64,000 bases of DNA from Adenophora triphylla var. japonica (Eukaryota; Streptophyta; Magnoliopsida; Asterales; Campanulaceae). This document shows, piece by piece, positions 3,053 through 62,694 of this stretch (its first letter is position 1; each line of letters starts with the position of its first letter). Where the stretch lies: assembly GCA_022495995.1 (NCBI GenBank), contig JAFEMH010000168.1:434001-498000 (forward strand), read 5' to 3'. The notes beneath the pieces are model-generated. The model saw nothing but the letters and a program-made list of their open reading frames with translations, ran no database searches and was not told the origin of the DNA. Made by a program: the position numbers and the translations under genes.

Positions 3053-3561
3053 TATTCATTTGCTTTCCCTCTTTTCATATCCCTCTCTCTTTTTTTTTTT
3101 TTGTTTTAGCAACGAGACATTTTTGGGTACTGTAATAAAACACATGTATTTGCATGGCAAACAGTATTTTATTTTAAGATGTAATGTCATTTGTTTTTGT
3201 GATTCCCGGGAATTGTCCTAGAAATTGTTGCTATTATTATTTTTATTTTTGTACATGCCACGTGAGCTGAGAGTGCGTTTGTGGGTAGTGTTGGTTTGCC
3301 GGAAATGGCTTTGGCCAGTGTTTGGGCTTGTTTGGAGCAAGGTTTTCTGAGGACGGTGGTTTTATCTTGTTTTAAGGGAAATGGGTTACGTTTGCAAGGA
3401 GGTCCGTACGGACATATTTAGCATGCAAAGAGGTCCGTACGGACCAACCTTGCTTTGGGAAGGACATAAATGCTTTCCGGTGCTGGTTCTTCCTCATTTC
3501 CCCATTTGCGGCCATTTTCGAGCTTTCTTCCCCATTTTCTCTAGGAACCTCCATTTTTGCC
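3053..3561 (+). promoter_or_regulatory. Intergenic promoter region of A PMD-B with two LTR-type palindromes
   Basis: Between the two antisense genes. It holds GGTCCGTACGGAC (3401-3413) and the perfect 14-bp palindrome GGTCCGTACGGACC (3432-3445). The second lies in GCATGCAAAGAGGTCCGTAC, a context repeated on the same strand in the A LTR near 14434-14456. A weak TATA-like ACATAAATG follows at 3464-3472, 18 bp after the palindrome, and the PMD-B ATG is at 3562. The spacing resembles that in the LTR promoters. Promoter activity is inferred. Confidence 0.6.
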
Positions 3562-5111
3562 ATGGATTCTTCGTATGTCCCTAGAATTTTGCCGAGGCTT
3601 TCGCAGGAGAGGCAAGCACACTTCCTTGAGCAGTTGAAAATGTGGATGCGGCGCCGTATGAGGCATCAGAGACGGGCTTTCGAGGTAAGGTTTCGTCTTT
3701 GCTCGGTTTGGTCTTTTAAGGAGTTGGTTCTGATTGGGATTTGTTGCGGGGCTGCCGCGAAGTTGCAGGATGTGAGGAGGCACGTGTCTTGTTTCTCCTA
3801 CAATGAAATGGTGCCCACTTTTGAGGATTTTCGGGCTTTGATTGGAGGGCCGGAGGTGGAGGCCATCTCGCTTCCTTTGGTTGGTGGTCTTTGCGGTGAG
3901 CGTGAAGCTTGCGGACTTTCTTCGTACTTCGTTGGAAGAAGTGCGGGGCATGATCCTTGATTCGGGTCATATCGACATTTACGAGCTGCCGGAGCGGTTC
4001 ATGGTTGATGATGAGTGCCGTCTCTTGGGATGTATTTGCCGTGTGTACGATAGCGACGCTCTTTACAGTCGGCTCCTTGGCATTTGTGATGGCGCTTTGC
4101 TAGATGCGGTAGAGACGCTGCTTTGGAGAGGATATTGTCCCGTTGGTCTTTGGGGAGACTCTTCATGGTATCGGCCGTCGCGGCCCAGGGATCGTTTTAT
4201 GAGAGGGAAGCCCGCTTTGCTCACCTTGTGGGCTGCGAGAGAGACTTCGAGCCATGCCCAGAGGCTCAGCGTCGTTTAGCCCGTGGTCATTTGCTCGCGA
4301 CCTCTTGTGTTGGATATGGATCGATCCACTTTGGGAGAGATGGATGGCACGGCTTGGTACGCATCGAGATCAGGTGGGTTCCGCTGGAGGATTGAGACCG
4401 GGAGGATCTTGCGGGAAGGGTCCTACGTTGTCGAGTTCCGGGTTTGTCTTGGTCCTCCTTCTATATTCCGTCGCTTGTTTCCGGCGGTTTGGGATGAAGC
4501 GGGAGCCTTTGTTGGGGCAGGATGACCTTGCTCTGCGGAGGTAGTTCCTCTTTGTATGGCGGCTCAGTGCCTTCTTGTATTGTACGAGGGTATGGAAGTA
4601 TTCCGCTTTCCCTCTGTGGTACTCCTTAGACGTCGGGAGAGCGTTGTATTGACGACTCGGTATACGGCACTTTGGTATGAGCGGCGTGTTGGGCGATCCC
4701 AAGTGGTCTTGGAAACGGAGCGTGTAGCGATTACAGGACCCGGTTGCCGTAGTAGCTATTGCCTTAGGAGTGCGAAGCACAGTCGACCCTTTGGATGTGA
4801 CGGGAGACACTTTGTTTGACTACGAGACTAGGGTTGACCGGCGACGGGGAGAGGTCCTCTTTACGGACTCGCGGGGAGGAGATCCGAGCCGAAGCACGGG
4901 CGAATGAAGCCACGAGAGCTCTTTGGATTATTTGACTCTACGGGGAGGACCCCGGATCTCGGGCGAGAGACGCGAGTTGGTTCACGTGGAGCGAAAGAAG
5001 ACTCGCCGGGGACGAGGAAGAAAGGGAAGAATGGCGAGGGACAAGCGCGAGATGGCGCGGAATGACCTCCTAGGTATCCATTCATTGCATTGCAAACACA
5101 TTATTAGTTAA
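3562..5111 (+). pseudogene. PMD-B gene of element A, frameshifted (antisense to pol)
   Basis: Homologue of the first antisense gene in D and Y. The N-terminal frame from ATG 3562 contains DVRRHVSCFSYNEMVPTF and EDFRALIGGPEVEAI (about 3767-3875), the signature shared by all three copies. The match then jumps between frames: IDIYELPERF near 3975, ALLTLWAARE near 4215, and a basic C-terminus KKTRRGRGRKGR near 4996-5035. The conserved basic tail suggests nuclear or nucleic-acid association, but that is inference. The domain resembles plant-mobile-domain or retroelement-associated DUF families; I cannot name the family with certainty. Several frameshifts make it a pseudogene. Its 3' end faces the integrase gene of A. 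Confidence 0.68.
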
Positions 5112-5147
5112 ATGTATTAAATTTGTCTTTTAGCATGTTGTGAACTT

Positions 5148-5178
5148 GAGAGTAGACCGTGCTTGAACTCATCAAGAA
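5148..5178 (+). promoter_or_regulatory. Conserved ~30-nt block downstream of PMD-B (A copy)
   Basis: A block containing GTAGACCGTGCTTGAACTC and CATCAAGAA. It recurs almost unchanged at 46681-46710 in Y and, on the minus strand, at 29431-29458 in D, always just after the PMD-B stop. It may be a 3'-end or polyadenylation signal for the antisense transcript. The function is unknown. Confidence 0.6.
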
Positions 5179-5514
5179 ATGTTGTAACCGTTAGTGATTT
5201 GTGATTTACTTTTAAAGCTTTGTCGAGACACAAGATCTCTTGTTTGCCTTTGCTTCTGTTGTGCACTTTGTCGGCGTCCATCTTTGGACTTTTACATTTG
5301 CATCTGCGGGCGAAACGATGCAGGCCAGACGGCAATCCCCTTTGCTGAGGCTTTGTGTTTGGCTGAGAGGTTGAATGCTCCCTTGACAAGTCGTTTTGAC
5401 GGTCTTTTTCGTAGCTTCCTTGCCGCTTGTTGGCGTCGGGCTCTTGACCTCAATTTTGCAGCTTCTGCTTGAGCTTCCTTTTTTTTTATTTTTTTTTTGT
5501 GAGCCCTTGCTCGA

Positions 5515-5549
<35 letters not shown>

Positions 5550-5854
5550 AAGCGCGTGAGGGCGAAGACAAGCCCTGGCTTGGAAGTAGACATGAGTCGG
5601 TCGTTTGATCTTTGAGTGACCCTCGGATGTCCTTTGATGTTGCCGCCGTCGTTTGACTTGGTCAAGGTGGCTGGCTGGGCGTGTTCTTGAAAAGTGCGGA
5701 GCTTGATGGAGGTCTTGATTGACATTCAAACTTTTGACTTTTTGTGTATTTTTAGACCAGGACCAATTAAGGTTGCCTACGTTCCCCAGGACTAGAGGGC
5801 TCAGTCTGCGTAGTTCGACACTACATGGAGTGCCAAGAGATGCACGGTTGTTCT
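5179..5854. other. Convergent 3' region between PMD-B and integrase of A
   Basis: Noncoding. It contains a run of about 30 T (from about 5519) and, at 5771-5818, the conserved GCCTACGTTCCCC...GTAGTTC motif that also follows integrase in D and Y. CTACG and CGTAG arms can pair. No coding potential is visible. Confidence 0.55.
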
Positions 5855-13287: not shown

Positions 13288-14760
13288 CGAAATTACCCGG
13301 GATCCGGCTCGCGCGCGAGGGCCCCGTGCATCTCGCAATTCGTCGGCCGTTCGGGAAGTCGCCCGGATCCGAGAGGCAGCACAATCGCGCCCGGCATCCG
13401 GCTTATTCCGTTTTAGCGTTTGCGAGGTTGGAGGTGTCTCGCCGTTTTGCTTTCGCATTTTGTAGAGTCGCCACGCCGTTTTTATTAAGCCCAAAACATT
13501 GAAAAAGGGCATCGGTTTAAAGATAAATTTTAAAGCTGTTTTTGTGTGATGAGATTTTGAGTTCGGAGGTCGAGATGACTCCTCGGGAAGAGAATATTAG
13601 AATATTAGAGCTCACCCGTAGCCTCGTAAACGAGTCTTTCGGATACCCCTAATATCCTTTAAAAAGTTGTGTGTGTGTGTGTGCTTTTAAAAATGCATGC
13701 TTTGTATCGGATGTCTACATTGTATTGAAATGTATTGAAATAGAATAGGAAGGAAGCCTTACCAATGTTGGTTCGTGTCTGTCTTCCGCGAGGGAATAGT
13801 GTTTGAGGTCGGAGTAGCGTTCGGATTGCTTGGGGATGCCGGTTGTCCGCGGACGAGTTTCGCGTGAGTTGAGGTTGTAGGCTGCGTTTGGGCGAAGGTT
13901 CGGCGTGCGTGGGGATCGTCGGGATCGGTCGGGCGAGAGGTTCGGCGTGCGTTGGAATCGTTGGTTGGATTCGGGCGAGAGGTTCGGCAAGGTTTGGGAT
14001 CGCCGGTTTGACTCGGAAAGAGCCGGGACAGGTGGGAAAGACCGAGGCAAGGCCTCGGAGTACCACGAGGGGCCTCGGAGTACCTCGAGAGTGCCTCGGG
14101 GCGGCGCGGGAGCGTCTCGGGAGCGCTCGGAGAGGCTTCGGAGCACCTCGAGGGGGCTCGGAAGGCCTCGGAAGGATCCGAAGGGGCGGGAATGCCTCGA
14201 AAGGTCTTAGAAGGGGAGCCGAAGGCTTAGGGAGGAAGAGAGAAGTGGGAGGTGTGAAAAAATGAGGAGGGGAAGCCCTCTATTTATAGTAAAAATTTCG
14301 GAGCAAAGAGGTCCGTACGGACCTTCTTGGTTATCCGAATTTTGGATTTCCTCGATTTGAGGAATGCAATGATGGAGAATATTTGGGAATGATGATGTCC
14401 CCCATGTACAATAAGGTCGTACGGACCATCTTGCATGCAAAGAGGTCGTACGGACCAACTGCGCATGGAAGTCATCATTTCTTAGGGATTTGAGGGAATA
14501 TTGTGGACTTTAAGGGGATTTAGTAATCATTGAAACAAAGAGGTCCGTACGGACCTTAATTGCTTTTCTGATTTCCTGAAAATTCCCAAAAGGTCCTTTT
14601 GTCCCTTTTTATCCCAGAAAGGCTCCTCCCCTGGTTTGGTTGGGGGTTTGAGAGGGTTTTGAGAGGGTTTTGAGTGAGAGAGGTCTCTGAGACTGCGTGG
14701 ATGAGTCTGCGGTGTTTCCCGTGTGTTTGAAAGGGAGTGATCCAGATTGGGGTACTTACA
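13288..14760 (-). repeat. 5' LTR of element A
   Basis: 1473 bp. On the minus strand it begins TGTAAGTACCCCAATCTGG at 14760 and ends next to the PBS at about 13288; the expected final TGA/TCA is altered (CGAAATTACCCGGG in plus). A TATA box CTATAAATAG lies at 14289-14280. Four copies of an AAAGAGGTCC(G)TACGGACC motif lie upstream of it. The related C LTR is about 660 bp longer. Confidence 0.85.
14310..14555 (-). promoter_or_regulatory. Four palindromes upstream of the A LTR TATA box
   Basis: GGTCCGTACGGACC at 14310-14323 and 14542-14555 (perfect 14-bp palindromes), and one-base-shorter GGTCGTACGGACC at 14415-14427 and 14444-14456. The nearest copy is 20 bp upstream of the TATA box (14280-14289). 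The same motif occurs upstream of the A PMD-B gene at 3401-3445. Confidence 0.8.
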
Positions 14761-22096: not shown

Positions 22097-23820
22097 TGTA
22101 ACGATGTGCCACCGGAAAAGATTTTTCTCTTTGTTTTTTTGAAAATCAAAACATGGAGTCGCCACGCCATTTTTATTTTAAGGGCCAAAACTTTGAAAAA
22201 TACCCGAGATTAGAGATTTGGGTTCGGAGGTCACGTTACACGCCGGGAAGAACGTTAGGGTTCACCCGGAATGCCTCGTAAAACGAGTCTTCCAAGCTTA
22301 AAAACCATTTGTGTGTGTGTGTGTGTGAGTGAGTGTGTTTCTTTGGCCAAAATAAATTCAAACTAAGAAAACTAAAAATTGGTAACTCTTTGTAAGACAT
22401 TAAAAAAGTCCCATGATTTTTGGTGTAATTTTAGGGTTGAGTTTTGGTACTCAAAAGACTCCTTGAAGTTGAAAGTCATTTCTGCCAGAATGAAAAAGGC
22501 AGTGGACACTTGATTTTAAAATGGATTTAAGAGCTTTAAAACTTCAAAATCTGGGGAAAGTTCAAGAATGAAAGTTGTTCAAAACATCTTAAATAAGGTA
22601 ACTACAAAAGACTTTTTCATTTAGAGATGATTTGATTTACCAAAACCTTATGGAAATCTCAGATGTGAGATCTGGATTTCCAGAGACTGTTGAACTGACC
22701 TTTGGAAAATAATTTTAAAAAGGGAGTTATACTCACGAAAAAAATAAAGTAAAAATATGTATGGAATTCTACGGATGTTGGCTACAAAAAGTATTTTGTA
22801 GTCAACACCCAATTCCAAGTTCTTCTGTGTCCAAAAAATTAGACAATGGACTGAGGTCTTAGAACAATGCTACTGGACAGCAAGATGTTCTTGAAGGAAA
22901 ATGTGATTTTAAAGGGGGTTTTGCATCCATGCTTGTCCCCATTTCCTTAGACTTTGATTAGTGATCACTAGACATTTTAGTGGTGATCTACTATATCAAG
23001 CCATCCTTAGGGTACATTAGGACTTAAAGCACTTCATTTGCTTGGGAAGGGGGAGATTTAACTTTGAAATCAAGATTTTATGTATGAAAATGATTTTGGA
23101 AAACACTTTTAAGTGAATGATTTTGAGGAAAAACACTTTTAAGTGAGTAAGAAGTAATTTGGACCTTTTAAATGGTCATCCATGGAAATTTATTCCAAGG
23201 TGACTACATTTTTAGGTCAAGCAAAGGATGAACACCAAGTTGATGAACAAACTACATCTTTGAAGTTTGAAATGCATGCATGGATGAAGGAGTTTAGGGT
23301 AAGGAGAAGGAGGGTTTACCAATCTTCTTTGTGTTTGTGTTTGAGGCTTGAATTTGAGAGTGATTAGTGAATGAAATTTGGGAAAATAATCAAAAGAAAA
23401 AGGTGGCAATTCAAGAGAATTCCCACTGTTTTCTCTAGTATTTTCGCCAAGGTGCTGTGAGTGAATTGTTGTGGCTCTTTTGTTTCTGAGACTGAGGGGC
23501 TCAATTTATAGGCCTCTGAAAAAATCAAAGTCATCCGCGCGGATATGTACTGCAGCGTGCACTGTTCATTTAATGCAGCTGCAGGCTTTGGACCAAAGGA
23601 ATATTTTCAAAAATATTCAAACAGTTTGTGTTCCAGCCACTTCCATTTTGGGTTTTTCTCTTTTTTTAAGATTCTTTTCTTGGTTTAACTTTAAATAGCA
23701 ATGCCTAATCTACCCTTGCTTTGTTAGAAAAGTTAGGAATTGTTAGAAATGTTAGGAATGTTAGGGCTTTCATTAATTTTCTAACGAAAATACTAACAAC
23801 TCAAAATTGGAGCACTTACA
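22097..23820 (-). repeat. 5' LTR of element B
   Basis: 1724 bp. Minus-strand start TGTAAGTGCTCCAATTTTG at 23820; end ...CATCGTTACA at 22097. TATA-like CCTATAAATT at 23512-23503. The perfect 12-bp palindrome ATCCGCGCGGAT lies at 23533-23544, 20 bp upstream. The sequence GGAGTCGCCACGCCA at 22155-22169 repeats the first ten PBS bases inside the LTR. Confidence 0.88.
23533..23544 (-). promoter_or_regulatory. ATCCGCGCGGAT palindrome in B LTR
   Basis: Perfect palindrome with the CCG-NN-CGG core, 20 bp upstream of the TATA-like box of the B LTR. Neighbouring GCAGCTGC (about 23575-23582) is also palindromic. Confidence 0.7.
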
Positions 23821-23985
23821 GATAGCTGCTATACCTCTCTCATTCAGAAGCTGTGCCACGAAATTCTGCTGATCTTCTTTCTGCCTTTTGTGCACCTCAC
23901 AGGCCCGGATGGCCTCTTCCAATGTCATATCTATTACCGGTGGCGGGGTTCCGTTCCCGTCATGATTTCTTGGTGAGCTTGACAA
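23821..23985 (-). pseudogene. N-terminus of gag-position ORF of element C, cut by B
   Basis: 55 codons starting MSSSPRNHDGNGTPPPVIDM and running through EEAIRACEVHKRQKEDQQNF to NERGIAAI, where the B LTR starts. The opening residues and the following Gln/Glu-rich helix match the B ORF from its internal MSTSAGN, which supports that Met as the start in the family. The rest of the ORF lies left of the window. Confidence 0.72.
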
Positions 23986-26926: not shown

Positions 26927-27033
26927 AGTCCGGACGGACTCTTATTCATTTTGGGGAGGTTTTTTGATATTTTGGAAAGTTGGAGGACTTGTTGGCAATT
27001 TTGGCTTTTCAAGCAAAACAGTCTAGACGGACA
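26927..27033 (-). promoter_or_regulatory. Palindromes upstream of the C LTR TATA box
   Basis: AGTCCGGACGGACT at 26927-26940 (6-bp arms, 2-bp centre), 16 bp upstream of the TATA box, and a decayed copy AGTCTAGACGGACA at 27020-27033. Confidence 0.7.
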
Positions 27034-29493: not shown

Positions 29494-30960
29494 TTAATTA
29501 AACTTAATGTGTCTGCAATGACAATGGGTGGATATTCCGAACTGCAAGGTCAATCTAGCCACTCGTGCTCGGTCCTTCATCTTTCCCTCCCTTCCCTTCC
29601 CTTTTCCACGGCGGGTATTATTCGTCTTCGTAGGAAATATCCCTGTCAATCTCCTGCCTGGCTCTAGGACCCTTCCCACCAATCTCTTGCCTGGCTCTGG
29701 GACCCTTCCCGACGCCTCTGTCAAACCTGTTGCCGCCAATGCAGCCCTTTCCCTAGCTCTACTACGAGCTGCCTCTCTTTGAGCCACCATATCTGTGCTC
29801 ATGTCGGCCAACCGACTAGCGTTGACCTCATAGTCAGCCATATCATTCCCCGTACTATCTTGAGGGTTAGCCATTGCCTCAGCCCTCCTCAATGTTGAGC
29901 TGTCACGGCGGTTAAGACCCAATAGCTCACTTCATCTCCACAGAAGTGCCATTTATGTCTCCCCTATACACTCCTCATACCAGTTCAAGTAGCCAGTAGA
30001 CAGAACAGTTCCCCCTCTCCGGTGAAAGAGAACCCTGAAAGGAAAAGATGCATATTGCCACAACCGCATGAAAAGCAAGAACGTCGAAGGATCATCCATG
30101 GAAAGCGATCCCACCTCAAAGGTAGAGGCATCACTCAAGCACATCAAAGGAACCTGCTCCATCCCGAACGGCCGTAGCACCAGAGACGGGATATAAAAAG
30201 AAGACTGGGAATGCCCCGAAAATCTGACAACGAGAAGACCATCCTGAACGGTCTGACACGTCTGCAGTTTCCAGTGAGGAACCCACCATCGCAAACAATG
30301 TGTACGGAGTTTAGCCATCCAAAGCGCCCAGTCAGCCTGACTGCCTCCTATCTCCAAGGGTCGTCGAGAGAAGAACCAAGGATCATACGTCACTAGAACC
30401 TCGGGCATAACTTGCAACCTCTCCCTTAGCCACAGAGTGAGAATAGCAGGACTTTCTCCCCACATGTACCCGCTACCAGTCGCCATCCGATCAATACCAT
30501 GGAATATTTCGCCTAAGATCAAGGGCACGATATCTTCTCCGCTCCGGCACTGCCTCACCAGGTCCAAAATACTGTGATGACACACTCCCAAGGACGTAAA
30601 CATGAATAGAGTGTCTATCACGCACAGAGCAAAAGCGTCCCACTCATCAACGCTACAGTCAGCACTCGCGAACCTATCCGGCATCCCCGAGATGTCAATA
30701 TAGTCAGTGTGAGGTATTAGCATCCTGTAAGCTTCTTCAACCGAAATGCCAAGAAGAGACGTCAACTTCTCAACGGTCGTCATTCCTCCCGTCAAAGGAA
30801 GAGCAACCTGCTCCACCTCAGGTCCTCCAAGGATAGCTCTAAAATCTTCGAAATTGGGAATGATCTCATTGTACGAGAAGCTATAAACATGCCTTCTCCC
30901 ATCCCAGAAATGAGCCACAGCTCTCAGAAGATCCCAATCAGGTGAAAGCTCCGTTTGAAC
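29494..30960 (-). pseudogene. PMD-B gene of element D (antisense to pol), near-complete
   Basis: The longest readable copy of this gene: 321 codons without interruption (30918-29953), showing that the region is intronless. Signature HFWDGRRHVYSFSYNEIIPN and FEDFRAILGGPEVEQVALP, then IDISGMPDRF, GEIFHGIDRMATGSGYMW, SPAILTLWLRERL, RWWVPHWKLQ and RVLFHRRGGTVLSTGYLNWY. After a frame break, 29922-29494 gives RADM/AQREAARSRARERAAL (helical, charged) and the basic RRGKGKGREGKMKDRAR. In-frame PDWDLLRAVA extends the match upstream to about 30950; the original start is lost. It belongs with plant-mobile-domain-like retroelement proteins; the precise family is uncertain. Confidence 0.75.
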
Positions 30961-31474
30961 CAGTCATTTCCATCTTCAAGAATCAATGGAAACAAGTTTA
31001 AGACTTCTGAAATCTGCAAAAACTGGACTGCAATTTAAGGAAGTCGAAACTGAAGATCTTGCCAGCCGACCTGTCTTTCAGTTTGACCCAGTCAACCTGC
31101 AACCTTGCTGCACCAATGTTCCTTGTCCATTCCAAGATGCACCCTGTTCATCCTTGTCCAAATCAGCCAAACGCCCGTGACTCATTTACATGTTGCAAAT
31201 ACCAAATCCATTCCGGGCTTGTGTGACAGTGCAAGTAATAATTAACCGTGCATAATAGCGATAAATTTTACATGTTATTCAGTGCATTTTTCCGTTATTA
31301 TTTATTTTTAATCAATCTACTTGCTTATCTGGTTCTGATAAATGCCAAGAGTAAGTAAAACAGCAATCATGATAAATACAATGTACAAAGTTTCACCCCC
31401 AAATTAAAGCATCTCGAGTACAAATAATGTCTAAGACAAGTAGTATATACAACTGTCTAAAGATATCAACAGGG
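30961..31474 (-). promoter_or_regulatory. Promoter region of D PMD-B with LTR-like segment
   Basis: At 31052-31086 the sequence GAAGATCTTGCCAGCCGACC followed by TTTCAGTTTGACCC resembles, on the same strand, the segment just upstream of the TATA box of the D LTR at 62577-62612 (GAAGATCTGGCCAGACGGCC, CTTCAGTTTGACAG). A TATA-like CCTTAAATTG lies at 31040-31031, about 19 bp away in the direction of PMD-B. The rest is AT-rich with no gene. Confidence 0.55.
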
Positions 31475-38896: not shown

Positions 38897-39589
38897 TGTG
38901 AATGTGTGCCCCAAATTTTGTGTATTGGAAATTCACGCTAGTTTGAAGACATCCGGTTTAATTTGAAAAACGGAGTCGCCACGCCATTTTGATTACCTTA
39001 AAACTTTGAAAAAAAGGTTTTATGGGTTCGGAGGTTAAGTTACCCCTTGGGAAGAACGGATCGTCGTTCACCCAAGGTGCCTTGCCGGAGCAAGTCTCCC
39101 AAGAGTTCATTAATTGTGCTTGCTTGCGTGCTTTCGTGTGTGCATGTGTTTGAAAATAAAGGGGGGGGGGAATGTCCCAAGTTGTCTTCCGGACGTACAA
39201 ACCATTTATTGGTTGTCGCTCGGGATTTCTTGGATTTTATGTATTCGGGATTTTGATCCCGTCCTCATCTTGGACTTGTGATCATTGCATTTTTAACCTC
39301 GGGACTTGCATGATCGAGAGAATGACTCCCTTTTATAGTCACAAAATGAGGTTCTTTAGGAAAGAATGTCCTTAGCCCATCAATCCTACACTTTAAGACA
39401 GTCGAGCTCATATAGATGCTTCATACTCGTCTTAAGTGATAATCGGAGATATAGGGTTCAAGGTTGTCCCTTTCTAAAGAAATTATGAAACCTTTTATGG
39501 AAGGAACGATGTAAAGATAGGATCTTTTACACCGGTCCGTTCCAAGGTTGCTAATGGGGACATGGGGGAATGCATGTAAAAATGACATT

Positions 39590-39990
39590 TTTAGTGAAAA
39601 GATGACATTTTGGGTTGCAAAGGATGCATTTGATTTAAAGAAGTGATCTTTATTTGCAAAGGATGCATAAAGACATGATTTTTATGCAAAGGATGCATGT
39701 TTATGAAGAAATTGGGATTCAAATATGCAAGGGATGCATAAAGATTATATTTTTAAGAAGCAAGGGATGCTAATTTAGGATAAAGATATGATCTTTAATG
39801 CAAAGGATGCTTGAAAAAGGATTTCATGTGCAAAGGATGCATTTTTATCATAAAGATTGGATTTTTATATGCAAAGGATGCATGAAGGTGGCATTTTTAT
39901 GTAAAAATAGGGTTTTTAGGTGCAAAGGATGCACCTTTGATTCAAAAGATTACATCTTTAATGGCAAGGGATGCCTAATGCATGTAAAAG
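39590..39990 (-). repeat. GCAAAGGATGCAT repeats in Y LTR
   Basis: Irregular repeats, about 30-40 bp apart, of GCAAAGGATGCAT followed by an A/T-rich spacer, in the transcribed part of the LTR. The same array is at about 56340-56740 in the 5' LTR. A single relative (GCAAAGGATGC) sits in intron 1 of Y PMD-C near 42580. Confidence 0.8.
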
Positions 39991-40345
39991 GGGGAAAGGG
40001 GGTATAAAGATATGATCTTTAACTATGAATGACAAGTCCCAAGCAAAGATAATAACAATATATGAAATGCAATGAGCAATTAAATCATATAGAGCAATTA
40101 GGATGCAATTTTAGGGAGTGAGAGGTTACCAATGGTGGCCTCTTCTTCTTTGGGTAGAGTTAGGTGGAAGGACCAACTTTTAGATCTTCAAGGGGGAGGG
40201 TGGAGGCTTCTTGGCACCCTTTTGGCTTCCTAACTTCGCAGCATTTGCTTGAGTATAGTGTATTGTGTAGTGGTTGATGATCTTGTGTCTATGAAATGGG
40301 TAGAGGAGGGCTCTATTTATAGGCGTACTGAAAATAGCTAATGAG

Positions 40346-40386
40346 GCCGTGCGGCTGGAGGTCCTTGGCTAATGCAGCCGTGCGGC
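40346..40386 (-). promoter_or_regulatory. Two GCCGTGCGGC palindromes upstream of Y LTR TATA box
   Basis: At 40346-40355 (in AATGAGGCCGTGCGGCT) and 40377-40386 (in ATGCAGCCGTGCGGCAT). The nearer lies 23 bp upstream of the TATA box at 40313-40322. Both are preserved in the 5' LTR at 57095-57104 and 57126-57135. Confidence 0.8.
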
Positions 40387-40625
40387 ATTATCCCTTGTGA
40401 CTCAGCATGTTTCTAGAATCATGCAAGGTGGCAAATTCTAGAACATTTCCTAATTAAGAAAAACGTGTTTCTTAATTAGGAAGCTTCCCCTTCAGCCCTT
40501 AATTGTTTTGGAACAGTTCCGGAATATTTCCGGAAAACTAGGAAGGTCCGGGGAATTACCGGGAAACTTACCGAAATTGTCAGGAAATTTAACCGGAAGG
40601 CATGAGCCAGATTTGGGTACTTACA

Positions 40626-41149: not shown

Positions 41150-41580
41150 TTGTCACCTGAAGAAACTAGAGCTTACGTCACTATCTGTGATAGAGGTAGC
41201 TGAAGTTGAGAAAACTGAAGCATACTTCACTATCGAGGAGATAGAGGTAGCTAAAGTTGAGAAAACTAAAGCATACTTCACTATCGAGGAGATAGAGGTA
41301 GCTTAAGTTTAGAAGAACTTGAGCGTACGTCACTATCTGTGATAGAGGTAGCTGAAGTTTAGAAGAACTTGAGCATACTTCACTATTCGTGATAGAGGTA
41401 GCTTAAGTTTAGAAGAACTTGAGCGTACGTCACTATCTGTGATAGAGGTAGCTGAAGTTTGGGATAACTTGAGCATACTTCACTATTCGGGATAGAGGTA
41501 GCTTAAGTTTAGAAGAACTTGAGCATACTTCACTATTCGTGATAAAGGTAGCTTAAGTTTAGAGTTCTGACAATTCGGAG
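41150..41580. repeat. 50-bp tandem repeats near the Y 3' LTR
   Basis: About eight copies of a 50-bp unit containing GCTTAAGTTTAGAAGAACTT and CACTATCTGTGATAGAGGTA. It occupies the same place as the 51-bp array of X and the arrays of D near the 3' LTR, but the sequence differs. Confidence 0.85.
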
Positions 41581-41766
41581 GTTGTCACCTAGCGTTATCC
41601 CGTTATAACGGAATTAACGGAGGTGACTGGGAAGAAAGCTTAATTGCTTAGGCGATAAGGGATATCTTCTGAAAAGGGTGTTATCTTAGTTAAAGGATAA
41701 CGGGAATTGTAGGCCCAAGTGGAAAGTCCAGGGGCAAAATTGTAATTTCTGCTCAGAGCGAATGAG

Positions 41767-41837
41767 GCCGCCCGGCATGAGAGGGAGGAAAAAGAAGCCG
41801 TACGGCTAAAAGATTAATTTTTCCAGATTATTTAAAA
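41767..41837 (+). promoter_or_regulatory. Promoter of Y PMD-C with two LTR-type palindromes
   Basis: GCCGCCCGGC at 41767-41776 within AATGAGGCCGCCCGGC (the same AATGAGGCCG start as in the LTR) and the perfect palindrome AGCCGTACGGCT at 41796-41807. TATA-like TTATTTAAAA lies at 41828-41837, 20 bp downstream, and the ATG is at 41951 after a GAGAGAGAGA-rich leader also seen in A and D. Confidence 0.65.
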
Positions 41838-41950: not shown

Positions 41951-44553
41951 ATGGATCTGGAGGGTAATCCTATGCCGAGACAAGCTAGAAGAAACATCTC
42001 CGCGGCCGCTCAAAGGAGGAGGAAGGAACTCGTTCGAACGGAGAGGAAGTACGACTTTCTTACGCCTCCATCGGAGCTCTATCCGGGGAGAAGAGAGCAC
42101 AAATCGACGAACCCGCGATCGGTTGGGGTAAGCATTCTTATTTGGCTCAATTCCGTCGATTTTGATTGAGTATTGATTGATTTAGGGCTTGACCCGAATT
42201 TTAAGAATTTTCTAGGATTTTCCTAGGATTTTGGATGATTTTGAGACATTGATGAATAACCTATGAGGCTAAGAACATGCATGTGCAATTTATTTGACAA
42301 AAATAATGGGAATGACCCACTTTTTTCTCGAAAGTAAAGTAAGAATGATAATTGTGTAAAGTGAGACGAAGCCCTTGCATGTGCTAGAACTAGGTCAAAA
42401 TTTTGATTATCAATGAGAAAACAGGATTTTGGAAGATGAAAAGGATTCATGCATGCCACTTTGTTGAAAAATAATGCTTATGTGCAAAGATTTTTGAAAA
42501 TTGTGATTTTGTGCTTTAGGAAAGCAATATGATTTGACATGACGTGTTTCAAGTGATGAAAGACGCTTTTTTGATGCAAAGGATGCTAGAAAGATTTTAT
42601 GAATGATTTTCTTTTGAAAACATGTGCACTTTTTGAATATATGCATGGTTTTGAAAATGATGAAGGACTGACACATTTCTTTATTGTGTTCTTCCTACAG
42701 GAGAACAAATCCAGGGGACCTTCTGAGATAGCAGTCAGGCTTTGGCAGAGGATGCCAAATTTTGAGAAAGACGGGGTGAATCCCAAGGAGTTGGTGAGAG
42801 CTACCGGCCTAGATCTTTTCATTGAGGCTATCGGCAGGGGGATTCATATCACTTCTAAGAGCAAGGGCTTGGTCCAGGCCCTTTCAGAGTTTTGGTGGGA
42901 CACCACTCATAGCTTCCATCTGAGCTGGGGAGAGTTGATGGTGACTCCCGCTGATTTCACAGCTATCACTGGCCTACAGTTCACTGGGAGGCCTGTGACT
43001 TGGAGGGACCACATCACAATGAGGAATTTAACTGTTGGGTTTGAGTTGATTCCCAAGGGGCTATGGATGGAGACGCGGAACATCGAGGTGGCAGTCCAGA
43101 ACTGCATACGGGACTTTGCCGTTAGTGAGGTGACTGCCCACCAGCTTGCTAGAGCTTTTGTGTGGTTGATGCTGTCGGTCACTATCTTCGCAAATTCTGG
43201 GACTCTGGCCATGACTTGCCTTCTCGACTCTTTGGAGGATGTAGATGGGATAGGGACGGTCTCTTGGGGAGAGGCCGGATTGGCGGAGCTCTACTTCTCT
43301 CTGGACATGTACAGCCGGAACAAAGGTGCTTCTATGGATTGCTTTTCATTTGCTCTTGAGGTAGTCCCTCTTTCTTTTCTCTTTCTTTTCCTGTCTTGAG
43401 ACTTTTATGAGAGAGAAATGACCTTTTTGATGTTTTGAACATGCAGGTCTGGTTCTGTGAGGTGATCGGGTTCTTTCATTGGAACCAACAGAGCGATATC
43501 ACCATCTTTCCCGCTATGGTTCGCTGGAGAGGAGATGCGAGAGATAAGTTCACGGGGAAGACCTGGATAACCTTTGACTATAAGATGGTGAGGTCGGTCA
43601 TCAACAGGGATGGACATGACGGAGTGGACTTCTACCCGTGGGGCAGGTATCAGGAGATTTTGCTAGGAGAGGCCATTGAGGCGACGAGGCAGAGGAGATG
43701 GCTGACTGGGCTGACATGTGATGTCATCTATTTGGGGGAAAGATTTTCTAGGCAGCATGGCCATGTCCCTTCATTGGATGCCATTACTCCCCATGATCCT
43801 CCAGCACGGATGCTACAGCCCAGGGATTGGCAGGCAGATGAGATCGCTAGATATCAGGCAGGCGTGGCCGCCGAGGAGTACTTTGATATGGATACCCCCT
43901 ACGCTGTGTTTGTGGAGCAGCGCCTGAGGACGCCACAGAAGCTGATGAAGCTGGCGGTCACTCAGAGATATGGGGAGGACGAGCCTTCTGACCCGCCGAT
44001 CCCTCCTGCGCATATTTCATACGTGGTCCACGGATTTCCGAGGAGGATGAGGATACCTGTCCCCGACACCAGGGAGCCCCAGTATACCCTGCCGCCTGAC
44101 AGCACTGTAAGTATACTTTTAGGGTCTTTCCCTTTTTCAGCTTTCTTTGCTTTTTGCAATTCTGAGATTTTTCTGAGATTTTTCTCCTCTTTTTCTCAGG
44201 TTCCAGCTCGCACTTATGACAGACTGGTTAGGCAGAATAGGGGCTGGAAAGACATGTGCCGGTCCCTTCTGAGGAAGCTGGCCTGCACTTCAAAGGCGGC
44301 AGCGGACGCACAGGAGCCCGGGCGCAAGAGAAGGCATGTCGGGGGCACAGCGTCTACCTCATCGGCCTCGGAGTACTCTTCCAGTGCCATGCCTCGGGGA
44401 CGGGGACCCAATGCTGACATTCTGGAGCAGCTGGCTGAGTATGGGCACGATAATGTCCATCTGTCTGATGTGAGCGATCGGGAGGACTTGATGAGGGAGG
44501 CTAGCGTCTACGAGCTGAGCAGCGATGAAGAAGAAGAAGAATTGGAGGCCTAG
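41951..44553 (+). CDS. Intact four-exon plant-mobile-domain (PMD-C) gene of element Y, antisense to pol
   Basis: Exons 41951-42127, 42701-43360, 43447-44106 and 44200-44553; introns GTAAGC...CCTACAG, GTAGTC...ATGCAG and GTAAGT...TTCTCAG, all phase 0. The product would be 616 residues. Residues 1-59 are Arg-rich. A plant mobile domain spans roughly 85-400, with SEFWWDTTHSFHLSWGEL (about 121-138), TPADFTAITGLQF and GEAGLAELYFSLDMYSRN. Exon 3 starts VWFCEVIGFFHW. The C-terminus is Ser-rich then acidic (SSDEEEEELEA). Plant mobile domains occur in MAIN/MAIL1-type nuclear proteins needed for silencing and genome stability, and in transposons. That this protein acts on element expression is inference. 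It is the only fully intact gene I see in Y. Confidence 0.87.
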
Positions 44554-45082
44554 GAGGTCTCTAGAGTGGATTAGGAACAAAAACAAACAATGAACACGTT
44601 TTTATGCACACTTTGTTTATTTTTTGCTTTATTCAGGCGCCAATGGGGCGAAAACAATGTATTACTGTTTTATTTGCTTTTCTATTTATGCTTTTATTAA
44701 TTTGCATATTACTTGAGCCTCGGGGCAGTTTTTTGCTTGGAATTGGGGCTGAAACTGGGCCAAAATGATATATAATGATATATAAATGCTTGGATGGTCT
44801 TTGAACATGTTTTTGTACAGGTTTTGGTTGAGAAAGTGGGGTGAAAACTCCCTTGGGCAGCAACTTTGGTTGCTGCAGATTTTTTCTGCAGATGGCAACT
44901 GTAGCCGTGCGGCATGGACCTGAGGGCAAATGAGGCCGTGCGGCTCACAGTTCTGTCTGGACTGGTTATTTTCTGAATAAAAGCAAGGCTTGGCCATTTC
45001 ATTTCATTTTCACTCTAGACTTGTCCCAATCGTTCCCAGAGCACATATTGGACTTAAAGACACCATCTTTGGTCATTTTGCA
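44554..45082 (+). promoter_or_regulatory. Intergenic region and promoter of Y PMD-B
   Basis: Two GCCGTGCGGC palindromes, 44904-44913 (GTAGCCGTGCGGCATGG) and 44935-44944 (within AATGAGGCCGTGCGGCT, identical over 17 bases to the LTR copy and on the same strand). A TATA-like TGAATAAAAG is at 44974-44983 and the ATG at 45083. The upstream half is T-rich and presumably holds the 3' UTR of PMD-C. Confidence 0.65.
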
Positions 45083-46577
45083 ATGGAGAAACCCGTCAGA
45101 TTGCAAAGGGGGAAGCGAGACCGTTTTCTGTCCGATCTTCAATCTTGGGTGAAACACAACTTCAAATTTCACAAGGGGCTGCTTGATTCTTCTTTCAAGA
45201 TCAAGTCTTTATGGCATTTGAGGGATCTCCCGCCCGATTGGGACCTTTTGAGAGCAGCAGCAAGGTTTTGGGACGTCCGGAGACACGTTTACTGCTTTTC
45301 TTACAATGAGATTGTCCCAACGCATGAAGACTTCCGAGCCTTGATTGGGGGTCCCGAAATTGAGGCTATATCTATTCCGCTGATCGAAGACGTGCCGGTG
45401 GCGACAAAGCTTGCATCTTTTCTGCAGATTTCTCTGGGAGAGGCTGAGGGGATGACGATAGCCCCGGACAGGATTGACCTTTCTGATATCCCGGGCAGGT
45501 TTGGGTCTCCGGCTATGGCTGCGACCACGGTAGCTATGGATGCCTTTATTCTCTGCATATTTTCTGCTCTATTCACCGCTGAGTCCGTGGGGATCTGTCA
45601 TGGTGGTCTCTTGGACATGGTCGAGACTGCGGTGGCCGGGAAGGACATTGTCCCACCGGTTTTGGGAGAGACATTGCATGGTATTGACAGGATGGCTAGG
45701 GAGACCATTTCATGAGGTCTCGGGAGTCCACCGTGGCCGACTTTATGGCTGCAGAGAGGCTCGGGGCTTTGCTGTGGCTTTGCCAACTCGGTGCCCTTGG
45801 GTGATTTCTCGGAGAGGTGCACCAAGGCAACAGGACCAGGTAGCCGGGAGCCGATGATGGCTAGGCTATCCACTTCGGACATCCGTTGGTGGATACCTCA
45901 CCGGAGGCTGCGGCACCAAGAGGATATTTCAGAGTCCTATGCCGCGAGGGTTCCAGTGGTTCTCGCCGGTCATCCTTCTACATTCCCCGCTTGGTATCCA
46001 GCAGCTTGGGGCCTTACAGAGCCATCGAGCGATTGGGAGGACATTCGACCATGGAGGTGATGCCATTGGATATGAGGGATCCAAACCTTTCTCATTCTTC
46101 TCGAGGGCTTGGACATACACCGCTTTCCCACCTGTGGCTATCTTCAGAGCAGAAGAGTACCATCTTGACCACCGTCTACTTGGACTCGGTACGAGAGGGA
46201 AATGGGAGTGACTCAGTCATTCTCGGGGAGAGACGTCAGCTTTATTGGGGGCTGACTGCAACTCGAGTAGGACTCTGAGGGAGACTGAGGCTAAGGCGAG
46301 TCGCCATAACCAGTCGGGTGACCTGATCAGAGATATGGAGGCTCGATACAAGAGATTGTCCGAGGTTGGTCCTTTGACTGAGGCTCAGAGGGAGGAAGTG
46401 CAGATTCGTGCTCGTGTAGAGAGGGCACTTATTGACACGGGTTTGGTGGAGGCTCCAGTGAGGACACCGGAGATCGGAATGAGGGATACCGACATTATAG
46501 AGAAGAAGAGAAAGAAAACTCGACGGGGTCGAGGTAAAGGGAAGAAGACCAAAGAGGACTCAGCGAATGACGACTGA
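45083..46577 (+). pseudogene. PMD-B gene of element Y, frameshifted
   Basis: The first 211 codons are open from ATG 45083: MEKPVRLQRGKRDRFLSDLQ, PPDWDLLRAAARFWDVRRHV, YCFSYNEIVPTHEDFRALIG, GPEIEAISIPL, IDLSDIPGRF and LGETLHGIDRMAR. A frameshift near 45700 ends the frame, and the homology continues in other frames (STVADFMAAERL, DIRWWIPHRRL near 45870) to an open 3' part (46245-46577). That part has a charged helix (DMEARYKRLSEVGPLTEAQR) and the basic tail KKRKKTRRGRGKGKKTKE. The order matches D. Basic tail here versus acidic tail in PMD-C suggests the two products could interact, but that is inference. Confidence 0.78.
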
Positions 46578-55642: not shown

Positions 55643-57374
55643 TGTGAATGTGTGCCCCAAATTTTGTGTATTGGAAATTCACGCTAGTTTGAAGACATCC
55701 GGTTTAATTTGAAAAACGGAGTCGCCACATCATTTTGATTACCTCAAAACTTTGAAAAAAAGGTTTTATGGGTTCGGAGGTTAAGTTACCCCTTGGGAAG
55801 AACAGATCGTCGTTCACCCAAGGTGCCTTGCCGGAGCAAGTCTCCCAAGATTTCATTAATTGTGCTTGCTTGCGTGCTTTCGTGTGTGCATGTGTTTGAA
55901 AATAAAGGGGGGGGGGGAGAATGTCCCAAGTTGTCTTCCGGACGTACAAACCATTTATTGGTTGTCACTCGGGATTTCTTGGATTTTATGTATTCGGGAT
56001 TATGATCCCGTCCTCATCTTGGACTTGTGATCATTGCATTTTTAACCTCGGGACTTGCATGATCGAGAGAATGACTCCCTTTTATAGTCACAAAATGAGG
56101 TTCTTTAGGAAGGAATGTCCTTAGCCCATCAATCCTACACTTTAAGACGGTCGAGCTCATATAGATGCTTCATACTCGTCTTAAGTGATAATCGGAGATA
56201 TAGGGTTCAAGGTTGTCCCTTTCTAAAGAAATTATGAAACCTTTTATGGAAGGAACGATGTAAAGATAGGATCTTTTCCACCGGTCCGTTCCAAGGTTGC
56301 TAATGGGGACATGGGGGAATGCATGTAAAAATGACATTTTTAGTGAAAAGATGACATTTTGGGTTGCAAAGGATGCATTTGATTTAAAGAAGTGATCTTT
56401 ATTTACAAAGGATGCATAAAGACATGATTTTTATGCAAATGATGCATGTTTATGAAGAAATTGGGATTCAAATATGCAAGGGATACATAAAGATTGTATT
56501 TTTAAGAACCAAGGGATGCTAATTTAGGATAAAGATATGATCTTTAATGCAAAGGATGCTTGAAAAAGGATTTCATGTGCAAATGATGCATTTTTATCAT
56601 AAAGATTGGATTTTTATATGCAAAGGATGCATGAAGGTGGCATTTTTATGTAAAAATAGGGTTTTTAGGTGCAAAGGATGCACCTTTGATTCAAAAGATT
56701 ACATCTTTAATGGCAAGGGATGCCTAATGCATGTAAAAGGGGAAAAGGGGGTATAAAGATATGATCTTTAACTATGAATGACAAGTCCCAAGCAAAGATA
56801 ATAACAATATATGAAATGCAATGAGCAATTAAATCATATAGAGCAATTAGGATGCAAGTTTAGGGAGTGAGAGGTTAACAATGGTGGCCTCTTCTTCTTT
56901 GGGTGGAGCTAGGTGGAAGGACCAACTTCTAGATCTTCAAGGGGGAGGGTGGAGGCTTCTTGGCACCCTTTTGGCTTCCTAACTTCGCAGCATTTGCTTG
57001 AGTATAGTGTATTGTGTAGTGGTTGATGATCTTGTGTCTATGAAATGGGTAGAGGAGGGCTCTACTTATAGGCGTTCTGAAAATAGCTAATGAGGCCGTG
57101 CGGCTGGAGGTCCTTGGCTAATGCAGCCGTGCGGCATTATCCCTTGTGACTCAGCATGTTTCTAGAATCATGCAAGGTGGCAAATTCTAGAACATTTCCT
57201 AATTAAGAAAAACGTGTTTCTTAATTAGGAAGCTTCCCCTTCAGCCCTTAATTGTTTTGAAACAGTTCCGGAATATTTCCGAAACACTAGGAAGGTCCGG
57301 GGAATTACCGGGAAACTTACCGAAATTGTCGGGAAATTTAACCGGAAGGCATGAGCCAGATTTGGGTACTTACA
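55643..57374 (-). repeat. 5' LTR of element Y
   Basis: 1732 bp, matching 38897-40625 base for base apart from about 28 substitutions and a 3-bp length difference in the G-run near 55915. The TATA box is altered to CTATAAGTAG. The GCCGTGCGGC sites are intact. Confidence 0.94.
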
Positions 57375-60721: not shown

Positions 60722-60880
60722 CTTCCTCGCAATCCCCTCCATGGATTTGTGACTATCCCGAGCTTTGTAAAACTCGGTCGGATCCAAAGGAAGCTCGATC
60801 GCTCGCGTTGTCCTCCTAGGCTTTTTCCTCTCATTCTCGGTCCTCCTATATCGACCCCTTCGTCCTAATCCCGCTTTCAT
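60722..60880 (-). pseudogene. Exon 1 of D PMD-C
   Basis: ATG at 60880, 53 codons, starting MKAGLGRRGRYRRTENERKK and ending at the perfect donor GTAAGTATTC (60721). Arg-rich like exon 1 in A and Y, with the same phase-0 end, and preceded by a GAGAGAAAAATTC-like leader that all three copies share. It is separated from exon 2 by intron 1 with the 26-kb X insertion. Confidence 0.75.
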
Positions 60881-61060
60881 AGCGTTAATCTTTCAAAGTT
60901 TCAACAAAGAATCGAAGAAAATCGCGAATTTTTCTCTCTTTTCTCTCTTTCTCTCGGCCAAAACTCTCAATTTTCTCTCCTTCTTCCTTTCTGGCCGACG
61001 ACTGTTTAAATCATGCCAAATTGAAGAAGTGGTTGTCCGGCCTGTTTTACAGGATGGGCC
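60881..61060 (-). promoter_or_regulatory. Promoter region of D PMD-C
   Basis: GTCCGGCCTGTTTTACAGGA at 61035-61054 resembles, on the same strand, GTCCAGCCTATTCTTCATGA in the D LTR (62507-62526). A TATA-like GATTTAAACAG (61012-61002) lies about 24 bp downstream on the minus strand, followed by the GA-rich leader. Confidence 0.5.
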
Positions 61061-61124
61061 ATTTTGGCCCAAATGACCAATCAACCCCTCATCTTTTCAA
61101 ATTTGATGCTTTTGCTCAAAAGTT

Positions 61125-61345
61125 ATCAAAATTCCCAGTTAGACATCTCTAACGCTCCTCTCCCGTGGTTAAATTTCCAGTTAGACATCTCTAACGCCCC
61201 TCTCCCGAGGTTAAATTTCCCAGTTAGACATCTCTAACGTCCCTCTCCCGAGGTTAAATTCCCAGTTAGACATCTCTAACGACTCTCTCCCGAGTTTAAA
61301 TTTCCCAGTTAGACATCTCAACGCCCCTCTCCCGAGGTTAAATTT
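61125..61345. repeat. ~43-bp tandem repeats in D
   Basis: Five copies containing CAGTTAGACATCTCTAACG and CTCTCCCGAGGTTAAATT. No coding potential. Confidence 0.85.
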
Positions 61346-61554
61346 TGGCCGTTATCGTAAGCCCGACCATCTCATTTCAATGGCAATCATTGTAAGCCCA
61401 TACAATAATCCCTCCTCGGCCATCATCGTAAGTCCGAACATTCCTCCCCAGCAGGATCATAGGACCATCCTTTTAAGGAACATCAATCACCTCCTCAATT
61501 TCTAACTGCCTTTATTAGAACTCCGGACGCTTTTCCCCATCAATGTACCATCCT

Positions 61555-61940
61555 CTCCCGAGGTTAAAATCCGTTCCTAACCCCGTCATTAGAACGCCAA
61601 TCCTTCCTTCAAACTCAGACCGTGTTGTTAAAAATGCCAGTTTGACAAAACCGTTCTTGTCATTTCGTTCCTAACCCCGTCGTTAGAACGTCAATCCTTC
61701 TTTAAAACTCAGACCATGTTGTTAAAAAGGCCAGTTTAACACAACAGTTCCTGTCATTCCATTCCTAACCCCGTCGTTAGAACGTCAATCCTTCTTTCAA
61801 ACTCAGACCGTGTTGTTAAAAACGTCAGTTTAACACAACCATTCCTATCATTCCGTTTCTAACCGCGTCGTTAGAACGTCAATCCTTCCTTTAAACTCAG
61901 ATCGTGTTGTTAAAAGCACCAGTTTAACACAACCGTTCAA
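61555..61940. repeat. ~95-bp tandem repeats in D
   Basis: Four copies containing CTAACCCCGTCGTTAGAACG, CTTTCAAACTCAGACCGTGT and CAGTTTAACACAACCGTTC. Confidence 0.85.
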
Positions 61941-62141
61941 GATCTCGTGACCCAGCGTCAGTGTGTTAAGTCCCTTATACTTAACAGACAAGAACTATGA
62001 TCGGCTTAATTCTCCCGTGAATGCATAGGAATCCTTGCTTTAGGGTCCAGCCATTTGACCATCCAGGTCTCTCCATAAGGCATCCCCCAATTTGGATCCT
62101 TATCTTTTTTCGACGACCCCACTTTCTCCGTAAGTGACGTC

Positions 62142-62154
62142 GCTGAGGGGCTAC
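62142..62154 (+). promoter_or_regulatory. Polypurine tract of element D
   Basis: GCTGAGGGGCTAC directly before the LTR start TGTAAG. The preceding GTGACGTC and the GAGGGGCT core match Y. Confidence 0.75.
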
Positions 62155-62694
62155 TGTAAGTACCCAAATCTGGATCGTTACAATCCGTTAACTCACATCC
62201 AAGTTAACGAGACTTTCCAGAACTGCCTCGCGCATTCAAAAAAATCAAAGTGTATTCAACACACGTTCGCACACGTGAAAATACCACTTTTCTCGAAATA
62301 CGCAATTTTCGGGACTTTTCGAGAGTGTTCTGACATTTATTCAGACAGATTATTAAAAAACAGTCAAAACTCGGCCCGACGGAGCAAAAGTGGCTTTCTT
62401 AGTGACTAAGCTGGACACATGGCACACATGTAAGGGCCCTCTAGTCACATCAATCCAATCCAAGGCTGGAAAAGACCAAAATACCCTCAAACTGAAGGAG
62501 CGGCCGTCCAGCCTATTCTTCATGATCACCCATCAGTCTCAGGAAATCTCCAAATACCCAAAAAGCCCTCAAATTTGAAGATCTGGCCAGACGGCCTATT
62601 CTTCAGTTTGACAGCTTATAAATACAGCCCTTCCCATTCAGTAAAGAAAGAAGTTTTTTTAACCCTCCTGCCCATTCACCTCCGTTAGTGTTGG
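62155..62694 (+). repeat. 3' LTR of element D, first 540 bp
   Basis: Starts TGTAAGTACCCAAATCTGG. Palindrome-type sites GGCCGTCCAGCC (62502-62513) and GGCCAGACGGCC (62585-62596), then TATAAATA at 62617-62624. The sequence seems to be interrupted at 62695. Confidence 0.8.
62502..62596 (+). promoter_or_regulatory. Palindrome-type sites upstream of D LTR TATA box
   Basis: GGCCGTCCAGCC and GGCCAGACGGCC are decayed forms of a CCG-NN-CGG palindrome. The second is 20 bp before the TATA box. Confidence 0.6.

Follow-up and report, generated by a model that had tools for sequence, protein, structure and literature searches.

The 64,000-nucleotide stretch of Adenophora triphylla var. japonica DNA analyzed here (hereafter the window, C168:434001-498000, where C168 denotes the contig that carries it) contains nested Ty3 retrotransposons of the Tat/Ogre type, comprising families A, B, C, D and Y, plus a further element, X. 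In several of these families, a short palindrome that lies upstream of the TATA box in the long terminal repeats (LTRs) recurs upstream of genes carried on the antisense strand of the same element. A first reading of the window sequence (the original prediction) had proposed that this palindrome ties LTR and antisense genes into one regulon. Here we follow the motif through the window, through the flanking DNA to the left of it (the C168 walk, which lay beyond the view of that prediction) and through the genome at large (2.48 Gb in 8432 contigs).

The Tat/Ogre assignment is read from the domains of family B, whose Ty3-type pol contains a reverse transcriptase (RVT_1), two RNase H domains (RT_RNaseH plus RNase_H/RVT_3), an integrase zinc domain and an integrase core, the last scoring 30.3 bits, just below its 32.6 cut-off. 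Dual RNase H is a mark of Tat elements (PMC9289625; here and throughout, cited articles are represented by parts of their text). Antisense PMD genes lie between pol and the 3' LTR in Y, A, B and D, and TGGCGACTCCG, a candidate primer binding site, sits at the LTR end or close to it in Y, A and B, tRNA-Arg being the expected partner in Tat/Ogre elements. Each of the four families carries two such antisense genes, PMD-C (PF10536) and a DUF7745-like gene for which we keep the name PMD-B from the original prediction; the DUF7745 match is above the Pfam cut-off in D and below it in Y. The first exon of Y PMD-C, judged by eye, probably lies near 41.95 kb. Comparison of Y with a second Y-type element in the C168 walk (Y2; L038, C168:404001-414000), which is 88% alike over 8.2 kb, gives ratios of nonsynonymous to synonymous divergence (dN/dS) of 0.12 and 0.30 for the two PMD-C exons and 0.26 for PMD-B, indicating that the antisense genes of family Y are under purifying selection. 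The synonymous divergence itself is uneven by gene (0.69 in PMD-C exon 1, 0.41 in exon 2 and 0.20 in PMD-B), which hints at recombination between elements.

All six LTR palindromes listed by the original prediction are present, at or within about 2 bp of their predicted positions. The form common to five families is a CCG-NN-CGG palindrome whose outer bases are symmetric and differ by family; 20-25 bp separate it from the LTR TATA box downstream (measured from the end of the core to TATAAA; Table 1). This form is clean in the A, B, C and Y LTRs; in the D LTR the core is imperfect. Read on the sense strand, the dyads around the 8-bp core are ggt CCGTACGG acc in A, at CCGCGCGG at in B, agt CCGTCCGG act in C, g CCGCACGG c in Y and gg CCAGACGG cc in D. 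The constant part consists of two inverted CGG half-sites two bases apart, with variable central bases, and the family-specific part of the next one to three bases on each side, which are symmetric within a site. Four sites are present in the A LTR, against two in the original description, and although the middle pair has lost one base from each member in the window copy, several other A copies have all four intact. Both members of this middle pair share one change in each LTR (one base missing from both at 14415-14456; TA changed to TG in both, on a plus-strand reading, at C168:431264-431305), an observation that would be explained by conversion between sites 30 bp apart or by systematic sequencing error at CpG-rich palindromes.

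Ahead of the antisense genes, A, B and Y repeat the palindrome in the version of their own LTR; in D, which is decayed, the recurrence is weak. The predicted pairs upstream of A PMD-B (3402/3432), Y PMD-B (44904/44935) and Y PMD-C (41767/41796) were all recovered, and a further A copy (L016) has the same layout upstream of PMD-B as the copy in the window. The two predicted D sites fared less well: the PMD-B site resembles the D LTR site when flanks are included (ungapped score 26) but agrees at 11/14 motif bases, and the PMD-C site is not best matched by the D motif. The rule was upheld on DNA that the original prediction had not seen, in three of three promoters (A PMD-C and both B genes) and in both antisense promoters of Y2. 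In the C168 walk, the A PMD-C promoter contains the A dyad twice, 29 bp apart (433869/433898), and the B 3' LTR carries ATCCGCGCGGAT at 422644, with an exact B dyad at 427689 for PMD-B and a B dyad with one mismatch at 424342 for PMD-C, the latter 1,080 bases ahead of the point where PMD-C homology becomes recognisable. In Y2, dyads stand 31 bp apart in the LTR (410609/410640) and at PMD-B (406048/406079), and at PMD-C CCGGGCGG at 409217 is joined, 29 bp away, by a site with one core base changed. One operator type common to the LTR and both antisense promoters, differing by family and symmetric in each, is well supported; the predicted regulon thus stands at the DNA level, with D weak and X outside it.

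Table 1. Palindromic sites, antisense genes and elements of the window. Coordinates are window positions unless prefixed with C168.
Feature	Coordinates	Strand	Remarks
A LTR proximal palindrome AGGTCCGTACGGACCT	14309..14324	-	TATAAATA 24 bp past core
A LTR middle site pair	14415..14456	-	each short of one base in window copy
A LTR distal palindrome	14541..14556	-	
B LTR palindrome ATCCGCGCGGAT	23533..23544	-	TATAAA 24 bp past core
C LTR palindrome AGTCCGTCCGGACT	26927..26940	-	TATAAA 20 bp past core
D LTR site GGCCAGACGGCC	62585..62596	+	imperfect core; TATAAA 22 bp past core; second, decayed site at 62502
Y 3' LTR palindrome pair	40346..40386	-	31 bp apart; TATAAA 25 bp past proximal core
Y 5' LTR palindrome pair	57095..57135	-	same pair as in 3' LTR
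A PMD-B upstream pair	3402..3445	+	two A-type palindromes 31 bp apart; CATAAA box ~20 bp past second 12-mer
Y PMD-C upstream pair	41766..41807	+	two Y-type sites 30 bp apart; cores CCGCCCGG and CCGTACGG
Y PMD-B upstream pair	44904..44944	+	two Y-type palindromes 31 bp apart
D PMD-B upstream site	31051..31088	+	gene on minus strand; resembles D LTR site, flanks included
D PMD-C upstream site	61020..61050	+	decayed; likeness to D LTR mainly in flanks, score 20
Y PMD-C gene	42599..44550	+	PF10536, 3.6e-20; open exons 42599-43363 and 43435-44550
Y PMD-B gene	44981..45982	+	PF24924, 1e-4, under cut-off; reading frame open to 45712
A PMD-B gene	3562..4699	+	broken here; tblastn to Y/D PMD-B in several pieces; start is first ATG of frame
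A PMD-C gene	73..2216	+	several pieces, decayed; promoter pair just outside window, C168:433869/433898
D PMD-B gene	29953..30951	-	DUF7745, PF24924, 4.5e-06, 26.4 bits against cut-off of 26; antisense to D
D PMD-C gene	31909..33357	-	tblastn 33-38% to Y PMD-C; X insertion separates gene from its promoter
A element	beyond window edge to 14759	-	appears to sit inside B
A LTRs	5' LTR 13289..14759; 3' LTR C168:430139-431600	-	3' LTR outside window; 95.0% match over 1490 columns
B LTRs	5' LTR 22097..23826; 3' LTR C168:421213-422937	-	3' LTR outside window; 97.3% match over 1731 columns
D element	starts ~27.4 kb, resumes 60.3 kb	+	X splits D, Y splits X
Y LTRs	3' LTR 38897..40625; 5' LTR 55643-57374	-	98.2% alike

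The palindrome is more frequent than in its controls. The window contains 25 copies of the core CCGNNCGG, whereas 100 dinucleotide shuffles average 8.2 and never exceed 14; requiring two symmetric bases on either side leaves 8 copies, where the shuffles average 0.51 and reach 3 at most. Six 10-kb stretches picked without regard to the motif (L030-L035) hold three cores in total, one of them an LTR site at C50:308472. Across the genome, the A 14-mer is found 47,555 times (reversed control, 0), the B 12-mer 12,110 times (control, 316) and the Y pair 7,002 times (3,532 + 3,470; control, 0). The distance to the TATA box is confined. Of the 31 symmetric sites of the window and C168 walk that stand far enough from an end, seven have TATAAA within 20-25 bases, at 20 (one site), 24 (four) or 25 (two); it recurs at 56 bases in two cases, each the second member of a pair, and nowhere else below 56. 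All sequence examined yields 115 sites, mostly motif-chosen and including many related copies, hence not independent events, with TATAAA at 20 (2), 23 (4), 24 (18), 25 (2) and 56 (2) bases; 26/115 therefore have it at 20-25 bases against about 0.85 expected by position, TATAAA lying 18-26 bases away from roughly 0.74% of positions. For family B, 7 of 20 sites fetched (from 50 distinct places listed, of the 12,110) have TATAAA at one identical distance; of the other 13, nine look by eye like antisense promoters, with a TTAAT-like box on the opposite side, and four could not be placed.

Family specificity was assessed by cutting upstream regions on the basis of protein homology (500 bases for PMD-B, ~1500 for PMD-C) and scanning them with the five LTR 14-mers. 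In promoters reached without a motif search, the family's own motif was the single best match in 9/10 cases (4/5 in the window and 5/5 in the C168 walk). Seven further A-type promoters on contig C1 gave 7/7, but it was the A motif that led to them, and a listed motif hit falls within six, so that they show the layout repeating and add little else. The PMD-B proteins cluster by motif type as well: segments from five A-type copies, with the window's own A copy left out, are 70-93% identical to one another and 44-60% identical to those of other families, and the Y and Y2 proteins are 94% alike.

An operator that is shared between promoters, amplified with its element and different between families yet symmetric in each points to a dimeric factor whose specificity differs by family. 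We propose that each family possesses a private operator, composed of a dyad, (outer bases)-CCG-NN-CGG-(symmetric outer bases), and a one-sided TTTGCA-like flank. It would act from a position 20-25 bp before the LTR TATA box and from others upstream of PMD-C and PMD-B; in A and Y it is doubled, the copies lying 29-31 bp, or about three helical turns, from each other. All three promoters would be targets of a dimeric, sequence-specific regulator, and the three-turn spacing would place two dimers on one face of the DNA. The economical candidate for the binder is the element's own protein under that operator, with the same family's PMD-B or PMD-C product the most likely. Such a regulator would switch the whole element at once, through activation or un-silencing of the LTR and of its own gene, much as VANC proteins do in the transposons considered below; since several perfect sites have been retained by the element, activation or un-silencing seems preferable to repression. 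What we infer in this scheme is that the sites are bound, which protein binds them and in which direction it acts (activation, not repression). On balance, and with modest confidence, we favor a family-specific operator for a dimeric, probably element-encoded PMD regulator of VANC-like action.

The shared features of the operator could also reflect one or more host transcription factors that read YCCG-N2-CGGR dyads and drive both LTR and antisense promoters, the elements having tuned their sites accordingly. A core architecture and TATA distance common to five families (the core strict in A, B, C and Y, and near in D) are what one factor class would produce, and Arabidopsis PMD proteins may themselves work via an unidentified factor (PMC7156037, PMC9899485). 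The outer bases, however, differ by family, show symmetry wherever the site is clean and recur from promoter to promoter within an element, a pattern that a single specificity would not predict, and we judge a host activator to be unlikely. No plant factor with a CCG-N2-CGG site is known to us, although no search aimed at one was made.

The spacing and conservation of the sites bear on a second alternative, in which a piece of the LTR promoter was duplicated internally by template switching or gene conversion and the copies are now functionless. Neighboring symmetric sites in the window and C168 walk lie 29 (one), 30 (two), 31 (six), 98 (one) or 106 (one) bp apart, with no other spacing up to 130 bp, and addition of the C1 copies gives 29 (1), 30 (9), 31 (15), 97-100 (11) and 106-107 (12); the B sites seen were mostly single. 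That the flanks lie on the same strand would suit passive copying, and the change shared by both members of the A pair within each LTR of one copy hints at conversion between neighbors. Yet among 100 listed Y pairs of the 7,002, found by a search that allowed 24-40 bp, 98 keep a spacing of 30-31 bp (31 bp in 94, 30 bp in four; the remaining two have 32 and 35 bp) despite several very different spacer sequences among them. In 14 A LTR promoter pieces, moreover, the four sites show pairwise identities of 0.92, 0.90, 0.90 and 1.00 against 0.765 for the other columns, an upper estimate, as the pieces were chosen by at least one exact site and one row is badly aligned. Passive duplication would also have to account for the fixed distance of TATAAA from the LTR sites and for a pattern found separately in A, B and Y, and we consider it quite improbable.

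Inspection of the sequence beside the dyads indicates that the site is bipartite, with a TTTGCA-like flank about 3-5 bases after the dyad on the sense strand (ctcTTTGCt in A, accTTTGCA in several B copies, gttcTGCA in C and ctcATTAGC in Y). Of 28 sites that have TATAAA on a single side, 20 carry the flank pattern we searched for on that side and not the other, and eight lack it on both; in none is it confined to the opposite side. As the original prediction had noted, the flanks match on the same strand; their orientation is thus constant with respect to the element, toward TATA in the LTR and away from TATA and the gene in the antisense promoters. At the A, B, C and Y dyads, the flank often holds TGCA(T), a resemblance, noticed by eye, to the DOWN motif CATGCAGTTT of Arabidopsis. 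A single orientation on the sense strand is what a role in the sense RNA would call for, such as hairpins or kissing loops for packaging or dimer formation, and the A, C and D LTR sites do fold better than shuffles (z = -2.3, -2.7 and -2.2); no such advantage is seen, however, for the B LTR site or for any of the four Y-type sites folded (z = -0.89 to +0.80), so that a stable hairpin is not a feature of every family, and the fixed TATA distance would be left unexplained, making an RNA function very improbable. We give equally little credence to a host repressor or silencing factor, for example one drawn to CpG-rich palindromes such as the strict CCGNNCGG core with its two CpG, as an element would gain nothing by keeping several perfect repressor sites in its own promoters, and symmetric change of the outer bases would represent escape, yet the core is kept.

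Several observations weigh against an element-encoded PMD regulator acting through these sites. On the DNA side, the one-way flank orientation is not something that a simple promoter element needs, and the D LTR 12-mer is not amplified (148 occurrences over both strands against 36 for the reversed control). The sole miss among the ten promoters was D PMD-C, for which the C motif scored best, and Y PMD-C, Y2 PMD-C and D PMD-B, although own-best, carry 3/14 mismatches, a figure equaled by the best of 60 symmetric shuffles. The C1 A copies and all 20 B sites were chosen through the motif. The evidence for family C comes from its LTR, C168:385001-395000 containing neither a match to the PMD queries or the window nor a CCGNNCGG core. 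Likewise, for a new LTR-like promoter with GTCCGTTCGGAC at C50:308472 (L035 8472), no antisense genes or sites were found in C50:316001-325500. On the protein side, Y PMD-B has one in-frame stop (or an intron) within the stretch that is alike to D PMD-B, and grouping of PMD-B by motif is also grouping by family, such that co-evolution is not separable here from common descent. A structure model of PMD-C exon 1, built on a four-sequence alignment, reached a mean predicted local distance difference test score (pLDDT) of 39, too low for the model to be of use; protein searches returned three relatives in total, and no solved structure related to it by sequence was found. Finally, the 10 kb around a PMD-C-like fragment (L034) contain no CCGNNCGG.

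That fragment (L034 8267-8731), which is 26-29% alike to Y PMD-C, may be a host gene, part of another element type or an old copy. The C50 promoter comprises AGTCCGTTCGGACT, a TTTTGCA flank and TATAAA, with a second site, AGTCCGTCCAGACT, 93 bp upstream, and perhaps belongs to a further family like C. Neither D nor X serves as a clean example of the system. D is decayed, with an imperfect LTR core and a motif that has not been amplified. X, which the original prediction had listed with the others, does not belong to the system: its LTR palindrome lacks the CCGNNCGG core and lies ~150 bp from TATA, and the element, in which a single gag-like open reading frame was seen by eye, gave no match to the PMD queries. 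The X palindrome, GTCTCGCGCGAGAC, has a near copy 20 bp on (34557-34590 and 57439-57471), and a similar pair 19-20 bp apart occurs in the leader (35854); these are perhaps a different operator of the same kind.

The element map was derived from self-comparison of the window and domain searches, and the nesting order is our reading of both. B seems to lie inside C, whose LTR promoter stands near 26.9 kb. The LTRs of A have diverged more than those of B although A appears nested in B, the opposite of the expected age order. Y also encodes a G-patch protein in the sense orientation (50936-52042; PF01585, 1.1e-11), a domain that occurs in other plant Ty3 elements and in type D retroviruses (PMC9289625). 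In Y, D and A, tandem repeats separate PMD-C from the 3' LTR (41159-41613, 61128-61344, 61570-61938 and C168:431875-432864), with periods of ~50, 42, 94 and 42, respectively.

More broadly, Tat/Ogre LTR elements may encode their own dimeric DNA-binding regulator, PMD-B or PMD-C, of an LTR and antisense regulon, whose specificity would have changed repeatedly together with a palindromic operator, the two halves of the latter changing in concert. We put this wider proposal forward tentatively, as a matter on which the balance is nearly even. Few accessory genes are as common in plant Ty3 elements as those for PMD proteins (PMC9289625, PMC6317226). In the literature searched, which lacked most subscription papers, we found no description of a palindrome common to LTR and antisense promoters. 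The family dyad offers a concrete candidate DNA target for PMD proteins. If the proposal is true, an arms race between protein and operator would be taking place inside LTR elements, parallel to VANC in DNA transposons; the system would shed light on how promoters stay active in giant LTR families, and would yield naturally matched protein and operator specificities.

Element-encoded regulators that act on an LTR are familiar from human T-cell leukemia virus type 1 (HTLV-1), in which Tax and HBZ, the latter the product of an antisense gene, act via host factors at the LTR. The likeness to the present system lies in an LTR regulator encoded by the element and in a gene on the antisense strand; to our knowledge there is no homology. 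Among plant elements, maize Grande reportedly expresses an accessory nuclear protein from its own promoter. A PMD antisense open reading frame is present in 57% of Ogre elements (PMC6317226), and the antisense frame of Retand encodes TRP28, for which a regulatory DNA-binding role has been suggested (PMC11963269). Ogre, Retand and Grande resemble the families described here in having genes antisense to gag-pol between pol and the 3' LTR, and tandem repeats in that region. In the portions of the Retand article represented here, however, "palindrom" and "promoter" are confined to the reference list, and no operator shared by LTR and antisense genes was found (PMC11963269).

A closer relationship in protein sequence exists with MAIN and MAIL1, Arabidopsis PMD-C proteins that are required for expression of genes with the DOWN promoter motif (its MORC1 copy being CATGCAGTTT) and that have a role in transposon silencing (PMC7156037, PMC9899485). 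They share with Y PMD-C the PF10536 domain, together with a short promoter motif and a link to silencing. Unlike the antisense genes, however, MAIN and MAIL1 are host genes, and CATGCAGTTT is not a CCG-N2-CGG dyad, the likeness being confined to the TGCA-containing flank; direct binding is not shown in the available text on these proteins either.

The mode of action that we propose finds its nearest parallel in VANC, a protein of the Mu-like VANDAL DNA transposons of Arabidopsis, which binds a short motif arrayed in one orientation in its own family and undoes silencing (PMC5735166; see also PMC10398659, PMC13317346). In both cases, a transposon protein reads (or, here, would read) a short, family-specific non-coding motif that differs between related families, as observed for A, B and Y, and that keeps a constant orientation. 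The differences are equally clear: VANDALs are DNA transposons, their motif is YAGTATTAY (the word "palindrome" being absent from the text of PMC5735166 at hand) and it forms dense tandem arrays, in contrast to the one or two sites at fixed TATA distance seen here; binding and demethylation have been demonstrated experimentally for VANC, whereas the present system is known from its sequence. As LTR elements with a Ty3-type pol, the Adenophora families are not members of the VANC group, but their PMD proteins may work as VANC does.

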